Shown here piece by piece: positions 3,173 through 4,568 of a DNA stretch of 7,481 bases. This stretch comes from an uncultured Terrimonas sp. (lineage in GTDB: Bacteria; Bacteroidota; Bacteroidia; Chitinophagales; Chitinophagaceae): the NCBI GenBank assembly GCA_946886925.1, contig CAMPJQ010000124.1:1-7481 (forward strand), given 5' to 3'. Below the pieces are notes generated by a model. That model ran no database searches and was not told the origin of the DNA. It saw nothing but the letters and a program-made list of their open reading frames with translations. How positions within the stretch are numbered: position 1 is the stretch's first letter; every line of letters starts with the position of its first letter. The position numbers were made by a program, and so were the translations under genes.

Positions 3173-3193
3173 TTATTGCCTATTGCCTGTTCA
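3173..3193. repeat. Period-7 array interrupted by the MITE-like element
   Basis: The heptamers are TTATTGC, CTATTGC and CTGTTCA, running straight into the left end of the hairpin element. CTGTTCA recurs at 3440-3446 just beyond the right end, as part of the flanking direct repeat. This is consistent with insertion into a pre-existing array. Confidence 0.5.
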
Positions 3194-3195
3194 CC
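3186..3195. repeat. Left copy of 10-bp direct repeat (putative target site duplication)
   Basis: CCTGTTCACC lies directly before the AGGGC end of the element. An identical copy is at 3439-3448. Ten bases fall within the range produced by several DDE transposase families, for example some IS4-type elements. No family can be assigned from this alone. Confidence 0.65.
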
Positions 3196-3438
3196 AGGGC
3201 AAACGCATTTAAATTTGCGAAGAGCCGTAAGCTCGACACTTTTGTAAAGTCGTGCTTTAGCACGGTTGTAAATGAATCTTTGAAGAAGTAAGTGCCATCG
3301 GCACGGTTCATAATGGCAACGAGCCTACGGCTCTCTATACCTTTTTGCTATTTTAAACGGGTTGAAACCCGTTTTTACAATATCTTTCGAGGCTGCGCCT
3401 CTTTTTACAACTTTATAAATTAGATGCGTTTGCCCTGA
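3196..3438. mobile_element. MITE-like element with 14-bp terminal inverted repeats and six internal hairpins
   Basis: This non-coding element of about 243 bp has inverted ends: CAGGGCAAACGCAT at 3195-3208 and its perfect reverse complement at 3424-3437. A 10-bp direct repeat flanks it (3186-3195 and 3439-3448). The exact ends are slightly ambiguous. With the full 10-bp duplication the right end carries an extra GA; with perfectly symmetric ends the duplication becomes 10 bp with one mismatch at its outer base. The interior holds no ORF of note, only a hairpin array. Inverted ends, duplicated target and lack of a transposase together fit a miniature inverted-repeat transposable element moved in trans. 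It sits 83 nt upstream of the lipoprotein gene. Confidence 0.75.
3222..3401. repeat. Array of six short, sequence-different hairpins inside the element
   Basis: Hairpins, as stem-loop-stem: GAGC-CGTAA-GCTC (3222-3234), CGTGC-TTTA-GCACG (3251-3264), GTGCC-ATC-GGCAC (3292-3304), GAGCC-TAC-GGCTC (3321-3333), AAACGGGTT-GA-AACCCGTTT (3355-3374) and GAGGC-TGC-GCCTC (3389-3401). Five of six stems are perfect; the first pairs only four bases before a C/A mismatch. Centre-to-centre spacing alternates: about 30, 40, 29, 38 and 30 nt. This suggests three hairpin pairs. Spacers on the left carry TTGTAAA and those on the right TTTACAA, so the spacers also mirror each other roughly. No CRISPR-like identical repeats are present. 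Confidence 0.85.
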
Positions 3439-3448
3439 CCTGTTCACC
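3439..3448. repeat. Right copy of 10-bp direct repeat (putative target site duplication)
   Basis: CCTGTTCACC is identical to 3186-3195 and lies immediately outside the right end of the hairpin element. Confidence 0.65.
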
Positions 3449-3521
3449 TCTTCATACTATATATAAATATCAAACGTTTTAATATGGTATAACAGCCATG
3501 TTATGCATAAATCCATATAGT

Positions 3522-4568
3522 ATGAAACATACAGTATTTTATATTTTAATTTCTGTAAGCTTATATTCCTGTGCATCAACAGAATTGGTGCGTTTAAGTG
3601 TGCTTGAGCCGGCTCCTGTAACCCTTCCCGGCCATATAAAAAATATTGGCGTAATAAACAGGAGCGAGGTAACCGAACAAAACAAGGTGATTGAAGTAGT
3701 AGATAAAATTTTTTCCCTGGAAGGGCGTAACCTGGATAAAGAAGGCGCACAGGCGAGTATAGCCGGTTTGGAAAATGAGCTGATAAAGAATAACAGGTTT
3801 ACCGGGGTAAAAACAATTGACGATGCCAGTCTTAAAAGCCCGGTTCCGGGAGTTTTTCCTTCACCATTGACATGGGATATTGTAGAAAAAATATGCAGGG
3901 AAAACAATACGGATGCCCTTTTTGCACTCGAATTGTTTGACACCGATTCTAAAATAAGTTATGCGGCTAACCCTGTTACCATAAGCACACCATTAGGCAA
4001 AGTGCCCGGTGTTGAGCACAGGGCCACAATGCTTACAACAGTAAAAGCGGGCTGGCGCATATATGATCCTGTTGAAAGAAGTATTTTAGATGAATTTCCC
4101 GTGGCAGGTAAAATGGTATTTACGGGGAAAGGAATTAACCCGGTAAAAGCAGCCGGTGCACTAATTGGCCGAAAAGAGGCGCTGAAGCAGGTGAGCAATA
4201 AAGCCGGGCAGGATTATGCTTTCCGGATTATCCCTTACTGGTTAAGAGTATCAAGAGATTATTATGTAAGAGGAACGGACAACTTCAGAGTAGCACGGCG
4301 TAAAGCCCAAACGGGCAACTGGGATGATGCCGCGGCGATATGGGAAAAAGAAACCACCAGCGATAAAAGTAAGGTAGCCGGAAGAGCCTGCTATAATATG
4401 GCTATCATTAATGAAATTAATGGCAACCTCAACGGGGCCATACAATGGGCGCAAAAGGCCTATGAGAATTATAATAACAAACTGGCATTACGGTATGTAA
4501 AAATTCTGGAAAACAGGATGGTAAACAATGCCATTCTGGAAGACCAGGAAGCGATAAGTGCCAGGTAA
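3522..4568 (+). CDS. Lipoprotein with TPR-like C-terminal helices (Bacteroidota family of unknown function)
   Basis: This is a 348-residue predicted lipoprotein. The start at 3522 gives a short basic N-terminus, a hydrophobic segment (VFYILISVSL, 5-14) and a lipobox ending at Cys17 (LYSC), so it should be lipid-anchored and exported. An in-frame ATG at 3498 would add eight residues before the signal and is less likely. After the lipobox comes an alpha/beta-looking region that includes HIKNIGVINRSEV (38-50). The stretch WDIVEKICRENNTDALFALELF (118-139) resembles the 'is this value handled' segment of small Bacteroidota lipoproteins. Helices at about 256-320 (ARRKAQTGNWDDAAAIWEK; CYNMAIINEINGNLNGAIQWA) look like two TPR repeats, suggesting protein contacts. 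From memory it resembles proteins annotated DUF6340; this is not verified. Molecular function is unknown. It stands alone, with a mobile element just upstream. Confidence 0.88.
   Translation: MKHTVFYILISVSLYSCASTELVRLSVLEPAPVTLPGHIKNIGVINRSEVTEQNKVIEVVDKIFSLEGRNLDKEGAQASIAGLENELIKNNRFTGVKTIDDASLKSPVPGVFPSPLTWDIVEKICRENNTDALFALELFDTDSKISYAANPVTISTPLGKVPGVEHRATMLTTVKAGWRIYDPVERSILDEFPVAGKMVFTGKGINPVKAAGALIGRKEALKQVSNKAGQDYAFRIIPYWLRVSRDYYVRGTDNFRVARRKAQTGNWDDAAAIWEKETTSDKSKVAGRACYNMAIINEINGNLNGAIQWAQKAYENYNNKLALRYVKILENRMVNNAILEDQEAISAR

Follow-up and report, generated by a model that had tools for sequence, protein, structure and literature searches.

Insertion site and boundaries of the element

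Within the window, i.e., the whole stretch of 7,481 nucleotides that was analysed, a 243-bp element without coding capacity has a sugar-transporter gene (1629-2963) on one side and a DUF6340 gene (3498-4568) on the other. The element is a MITE: it is short, lacks a transposase, ends in terminal inverted repeats and is flanked by a target duplication (Table 1). Its perfect 14-bp inverted ends are found exactly where the initial annotation of this DNA had placed them (3195-3208 and 3424-3437), and when the arms are widened to 21 nt, 19/21 positions still match (90%). The same annotation described an identical 10-bp direct repeat outside the ends. This repeat, CCTGTTCACC, is indeed present on both sides (3186-3195 and 3439-3448), with the left copy sharing one base with the terminal repeat and the right copy lying one base away from the end; the flush duplication, however, is shifted by one base and is identical at 9/10 positions. 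We prefer the flush reading of both element and duplication, since the CAGGG end directly adjoins the duplication in other elements. Taken alone, the 14-bp ends are weak evidence, because a 14-mer inverted pair within 600 bp arises in 10 of 200 whole-window shuffles; the element is settled by the 21-nt arms together with the duplication, the recurrence of the element and an empty site. Next to the element, a perfect 12-bp inverted repeat (3451-3462 and 3515-3526) reaches from upstream of the listed DUF6340 frame into it and is largely kept in genome G362.

Table 1. Features of the element, in window coordinates.
Feature	Position	Strand	Basis
Left target-duplication copy, GCCTGTTCAC	3185..3194		directly adjoins the CAGGG end; present once in related locus L189
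Whole ISAs1-type MITE, 243 bp	3195..3437		ends, duplication; related copies L201, L202, L203
Left terminal inverted repeat, CAGGGCAAACGCATTTAAATT	3195..3215	+	matches the left end of the intact L160 IS at 20/21 letters
Three-hairpin unit A (hairpins 3222-3234, 3251-3264, 3292-3304)	3221..3305	-	model R2, 54.2 bits, E 1e-11
Centre between the units, 14 bp, GTTCATAATGGCAA	3306..3319		CATAATG, two ATG feet face to face
Three-hairpin unit B (hairpins 3321-3333, 3355-3374, 3389-3401)	3320..3402	+	model R2, 91.1 bits; 35-unit covariation
Right terminal inverted repeat, CAGGGCAAACGCATCTAATTT on the - strand	3417..3437	-	compare right end of L160
Right target-duplication copy, ACCTGTTCAC, one substitution	3438..3447		flush reading; L189

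The empty site is provided by locus L189 of genome G362, whose DUF6340 protein is 96% identical to that of the window: the matching intergenic place reads ATTGCCTGTTCAC and then continues directly into the right flank; the target sequence is present once, and the element is missing. The two loci align over 262 bp of the right flank at 90% and over 70 bp of the transporter end at 94%; beside the site the left flank matches over 13 bp only, local insertions setting the genomes apart between transporter and site. Related copies were sought at the DNA level in 394 genomes of the Niabella (G001) family, with two candidates scored per genome, and 13 genomes gave a match. The best copies are L201 (90%), L202 (81%) and L203 (74%), the last of which has two perfect 21-nt ends and, as read by eye, a perfect 10-bp duplication, CATTCGTGCA. 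Both ends are present in degenerate form in L202, L275, L276 and L279; together with the window and L203, these make up the 6 of 40 scored loci with both ISAs1-type ends within 7/21 mismatches, a threshold that shuffled segments reach in 0.9% and 1.5% per side. By eye, two ends each are also recognizable in L278 and L201, one of those in L201 being degenerate (the end-scoring script misplaced L278 and one L201 end), and L221 has one end with 3 mismatches and another with 8.

Distribution of the ISAs1-type ends

Ends that begin with CAGGG are the rule in the ISAs1 family, and target duplications in this family range from 8-10 bp. By its ends, and by comparison with an intact relative in another genome, the shell of the window element is classified as ISAs1-type. 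The intact relative (L160:1293-2528, 1236 bp) sits in genome G013, a Bacteroidales MAG that is also the source of L044; it encodes a 362-aa transposase of the type NCBIfam NF033564 / Pfam PF13808 + PF01609 and is flanked by the duplication ACTAGGATCT. A Nostoc copy (L139, 1524 bp) has identical 14-bp ends, a broken gene and no duplication, and an ISAs1 IS of genome G020 with the ends CAGGGCTATCGCGT shows 10-bp duplications at 3/3 copies fetched. ISAs1-family transposase matches were obtained in 12/29 genomes searched, 9 of them above the cut-off. The mobility proposed in the initial annotation is thus supported by three of the things that it had suggested looking for: related copies in other genomes, an unoccupied site where the target is single, and a full-length, transposase-bearing IS with ends of this type, the latter in another genome. 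Present mobility is a different matter: no ISAs1 transposase gene was found in any of the 6 array-carrying genomes searched, which counts against it.

The distribution of the ends was surveyed in one genome per species by scanning for exact 14-mers 181-241 nt apart, a design that excludes other element sizes and gives no copy numbers. At least 117 stretches were retrieved. In these MITE-sized elements, whose interiors are unrelated, a single terminal sequence, CAGGGCAAACGCAT, is used across at least eight phyla as judged by record title; the titles name Bacteroidota, Cyanobacteria, Spirochaetes, Verrucomicrobia, Nitrospirae, Planctomycetes, Acidobacteria, Deltaproteobacteria, Synergistaceae and others. 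Among the 117 elements listed with both flanks, the 10-bp flanking duplication is exact in 43, within one mismatch in 65 and within two mismatches in 76, compared with 13 of 13,689 mismatched flank pairings that reach two mismatches or fewer. Among the matches listed, duplications within two mismatches occur in at least seven groups and are absent from three Deltaproteobacteria elements and one Synergistaceae element. The two-ended pattern had no match in viral contigs; the one-ended pattern gave 17 stretches there, most of which look like chance by their extended ends, while L004 may be real. Weak matches were obtained in 74 plasmid records, many surely by chance; those to the ends are in cyanobacterial and Haliscomenobacter records, and one plasmid match, L018, is a 127-bp MITE with a perfect 10-bp duplication.

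Several single loci are worth recording. In L123:1753-3668, a complete MITE is preceded upstream by three copies of CGCTATTAAC and by an isolated ISAs1-type end, which would fit the duplication of a segment that included one end of an element. Niabella drilacis (G001) carries 408-bp ISAs1-type MITEs (L143:566-973 and L148:497-904) with a seemingly nested element that has the ends GAGCCTGTTTAAA. Finally, the MITE type occurs in records titled Bifidobacterium breve (MAG) (L081, L112), which are probably misbinned contigs.

Hairpins in the interior

The six interior hairpins described in the initial annotation are present: five have perfect stems of at least 5 bp (3251-3264, 3292-3304, 3321-3333, 3355-3374 and 3389-3401), and the sixth (3222-3234) has a 4-bp stem. 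Shuffled interiors contain a mean of 0.385 such perfect-stem hairpins, and five were reached in 0/1000 shuffles. Folding gives z-scores of -6.4 as DNA and -7.2 as RNA, the latter with the flanking repeats of the element included (0/200 shuffles each). The interior alone scores -3.85 (40 shuffles), so part of the whole-element score is due to the terminal repeats.

A hairpin-rich interior is common under this type of end. Among the matches listed, 119 ISAs1-type elements, the window included, fall into 50 clusters by their interiors, of which 35 fold better than shuffles at z < -2; in total the 50 clusters contain 77 hairpins, compared with 23.8 in shuffles and 29.2 in flanking DNA. Even in lineages whose interiors are unrelated, the ISAs1-type shell thus tends to enclose hairpins. 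One could conclude that the window element is an ordinary ISAs1-type MITE whose hairpins act as internal terminators or insulators, so that elements blocking read-through are better tolerated, and that any likeness to the Y1-linked arrays described below reflects a common type of hairpin. The hairpin richness and folding of unrelated interiors would fit, as would two terminator-like sites in the element (3304-3292 on the - strand and 3389-3401 on the + strand) where 0.2 are expected. However, the terminator scan called only 2/6 hairpins, and, as detailed below, neither the homology of the hairpin units nor their genomic neighbourhood is what termination alone predicts; we hold this explanation to be rather unlikely.

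Three-hairpin units and covariation

The interior consists of two related three-hairpin units of ~83 nt in inverted orientation (Table 1), the arrangement that is typical of REPINs. Unit B is itself one row of the alignment behind model R2. Among 25 units, A is found at position -6 relative to the unit in 21, T at -5 in 19 and G at -4 in 19; two of the 25 are from the window and the remainder are 23 of the 43 matches at Y1-clade loci (see below), mostly the stronger ones. Order and spacers are conserved between the window array and seven other arrays, and the unit alignment shows conserved loops, too. It is this homology in order, spacers and loops over several genomes that a terminator function by itself does not predict. 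Ordered homologous arrays in other genomes, also outside ISAs1-type ends, further argue against the hairpins having been gained one by one in the MITE. The initial annotation had considered an element that collects REP-like palindromes: REP-like the units are, by their link to a Y1 transposase, but they do not look collected singly; they form an ordered inverted doublet.

The proposal that the structure is under selection, with compensatory stem changes as the suggested test, was addressed by covariation. The eight full arrays show none that is significant by most measures (59, 160, 59, 394 and 29 of 500 shuffles reach the observed values), because the rows are too alike. A sequence-only search of the fetched loci gave 69 distinct units, 35 of which were chosen by hand for variety (alignment A3); the ends of some were shifted by a few bases, and many rows derive from shared genomes. 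The units left out are mostly near-copies from genome G303 or truncated. In this alignment, 96.7% of cells are paired, and 13/19 pairs show double changes. Double-change cells number 84, compared with 21.3 after shuffling (0/500 reach the observed value), although the shuffles ignore kinship; in slid controls, in which partners are moved by 1-3 columns and kinship is retained, 27-52% of cells are paired. Further pair types, the one weaker measure of the five, number 27 compared with 23.4 (22/500). Compensatory changes therefore do hold the stems, but the stems are far from free to vary, given that order, spacers and loops are conserved as well.

Strong covariation and the fold z-score of -7.2 for the element with its flanking repeats might equally be expected if the units were structured RNAs that covary as RNA and are carried by the MITE. 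A strand-specific RNA would be expected to show an excess of G-U on one of the strands, however, and the wobble-type cells are about equally divided (11 G-U and 13 A-C); for this lack of strand bias, an RNA gene was set lower than first choice. The units also occur in both orientations, even inside one element, and Rfam gave no match in the window. An RNA is accordingly a highly improbable explanation, and the wobble cells suggest a DNA structure on either strand instead.

Under strict filters, the unit model matches in 29/296 genomes of the phylum. No unit match was found in the 118 MITEs of the end scan, among the matches listed, and the pairing of shell and cargo is thus seen only in family-level relatives. 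Individual arrays show some variation: in L202 (G362), one arm of the long hairpin is altered and another hairpin, CCCGC-TTTTT-GCGGG, follows the AACCC of the array, and L216 of the same genome has an altered long-hairpin arm and an imperfect hairpin like that of L202.

Arrays in other shells

Genome G303 has 97 matches to model R1, with both strands of one doublet counted. Twenty loci were fetched, of which 19 were anchored and aligned, and most of them share another shell, with ends of the type GAAGCTGTTTAAAAA: such an end pair is present at 16/20 loci and an exact 3-bp duplication at 10/20, while an ISAs1-type end within 7 mismatches was found at 0/20. The array therefore travels in at least two shells. 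No transposase of the G303 shell was found, and the IS5-type pieces of this genome lack the ends of the G303 MITE; the term "IS5-like" for this shell is accordingly based on its form. Arrays in three further genomes (L207, L222 and L224 in G295, G175 and G066) lie near the motif TGTTGTGTCACTC, possibly a third shell type.

Association with a clade of Y1 transposases

Y1 (HUH) transposase genes are present in 9/9 genomes with arrays, but also in 5/14 named controls. The mere presence of such a gene was therefore rejected as evidence, and a test by clade was run instead. In a first survey, 6/30 fetched Y1 loci had unit matches. Those of G395, G263 and G305 have several matches and lie between arrays, and their proteins form one clade (100/99); L345, L342 and L329 have one match each and are placed elsewhere in the tree, so that the six matching loci are not one clade. 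When the G263 protein was searched against 388 genomes, 11 matches of at least 67% identity were obtained, the next listed having at most 51%. Ten of these 11 loci were tested (the second G269 copy was left out; the G145 match is a fragment), and all ten have unit matches, 43 in 30.7 kb, compared with 2/20 control Y1 loci of 40-48% identity (7 matches in 65.7 kb). The two matching controls are L364, with six matches, and L371, with one weak match. Of the clade loci, those in G395 (L206, two rows) and G145 (L223) supplied rows of A3, so that 8/10 loci are independent of the model. A link to one Y1 clade is the second observation not predicted if the hairpins merely terminate transcription.

At seven of the ten clade loci, units are found on both sides of the Y1 gene (L335, L344, L355, L356, L359, L360 and L362), and at L357, L358 and L361 on one side only. 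At 6/7 two-sided loci, with L355 as the exception, the nearest units have the orientation seen in the window, - to the left of the gene and + to its right. The motif DHxH is present in 3/3 clade proteins examined and Y---Q--HH in 2/3, from which L344 departs; in the classification given in the excerpt of PMC6006769, the latter motif is the mark of TnpA_Y1 subclass 1.2. With a minimum of 67% identity, no member of the Y1 clade was found in the two closest relatives, G362 and G336, or in G303, and the cargo may therefore be inert there. The Y1 gene of control locus L364, with its six unit matches, is 48% identical to the clade query, and the link may be wider than the clade.

In other genomes, the units thus adjoin a cognate Y1 transposase, as REPs do. 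They are not short REPs with a GTAG or CGTC tag: each unit has three hairpins and an ATG foot. What is claimed is therefore that the doublet works like a REPIN, not that it belongs to the REPINs. The Y1 enzyme would cut the units, and by analogy with the GTAG guide of REPs, the ATG foot may be the putative place of its action.

A probable composite of two mobile systems

Linkage and covariation support a REPIN-like cargo, and the most convincing explanation of the locus, which we consider likely, is a composite of two selfish systems in which a REPIN-like doublet is the cargo of an ISAs1-type MITE. An ISAs1-family DDE transposase, supplied in trans, would recognise the CAGGGCAAACGCAT ends and move the shell; ends, duplication and the intact IS suggest that such an enzyme moved the window copy, which is inserted between the sugar-transporter and DUF6340 genes, with 10 bp of target sequence duplicated. 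A Y1 (HUH, IS200-like) enzyme of the subclass 1.2 type would recognise the structures that the hairpins form in single-stranded DNA, as in REPINs. The doublet itself may derive from a Y1-linked array, perhaps from a gene-flanking pair of units whose gene is gone, because the nearest units at most two-sided loci have the orientation of those in the window. It would then have been captured by the MITE and spread as cargo, and we infer that it entered the MITE as a ready-made unit.

The reverse order of events would have the MITE come first, with no entry of the doublet at all and with the Y1-linked arrays as descendants of old MITEs. Arrays of G263 away from the Y1 locus do keep both ISAs1-type ends (L203, L275, L276 and L279; L278 by eye), in line with this order. 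However, ISAs1-type ends are lacking from the arrays beside the Y1 genes of L344, L337 and L335 (9-14/21 mismatches, one score per locus), and G303 carries the array in different ends; a MITE-first origin is therefore improbable.

If the doublet is indeed a REPIN-like cargo, the window element is a variant that combines known kinds, a MITE shell and a REPIN-like interior. One non-autonomous element would then ride inside another, in a form open to testing, and a little-known subclass of single-strand-DNA transposases would gain a likely DNA substrate. A wider generalization is tentative, and we would give it somewhat less than an even chance: that a Y1 subclass listed without partners has a large, structurally conserved DNA partner, the three-hairpin inverted doublets, and that these doublets spread in Bacteroidota partly inside unrelated DDE transposon ends, so that two unrelated chemistries can move one element.

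Comparison with known elements

With the ISAs1 family and its derived MITEs, the window element shares the CAGGG ends, the 10-bp target duplication and the transposase of an intact relative with such ends; it differs from them in being non-coding, with a Y1-linked hairpin doublet as its interior. REPINs and RAYTs, as described in the excerpt of PMC3116915, resemble it in the inverted doublet, the predicted single-stranded DNA hairpins, the extra copies genome-wide and the clusters beside a Y1 gene. By contrast, each half of the window doublet measures ~83 nt with three hairpins instead of one short palindrome, the units have a conserved ATG near the foot and not the GTAG/CGTC tag (excerpt of PMC3733652), and the doublet lies inside DDE-transposon ends.

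The Y1 clade proteins, with DHxH and mostly Y---Q--HH, resemble TnpA_Y1 subclass 1.2, which according to the excerpted part of PMC6006769 is found mostly in Cyanobacteria and Bacteroidetes. The table of that excerpt gives no REP for subclass 1.2, whereas here one clade is flanked by structured arrays; the Bacteroidetes subclass for which it notes "atypical secondary structures" is 2.6.

Two further MITEs invite comparison. BrickBuilt of Porphyromonas gingivalis is likewise a MITE of Bacteroidota in which IS-like ends enclose a repeat module, but in the excerpt of PMC4596501 its ends are IS5-type and its module is a tandem 23-nt minisatellite, and no such doublet or Y1 link was found in that excerpt. 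The hupL MITE of Thiomargarita nelsonii, compared by its description only, has 10-bp direct repeats and 19-bp inverted repeats with one shared base, and its authors found no parent in ISfinder (excerpt of PMC4853749). No ISAs1 end or duplication rule was found in the excerpt of PMC3281130, the 12-mer GGGCAAACGCAT was absent from the text of the open-licence papers searched, and among the open-licence papers listed in the literature searches, none describes this element by title and start of abstract. Elsewhere in the window, positions 1478-1506 form a stretch rich in inverted repeats, CCGGCAGGCAGGCCTGTCCGCCGTGGCGGA, which is perhaps another REP-like repeat.
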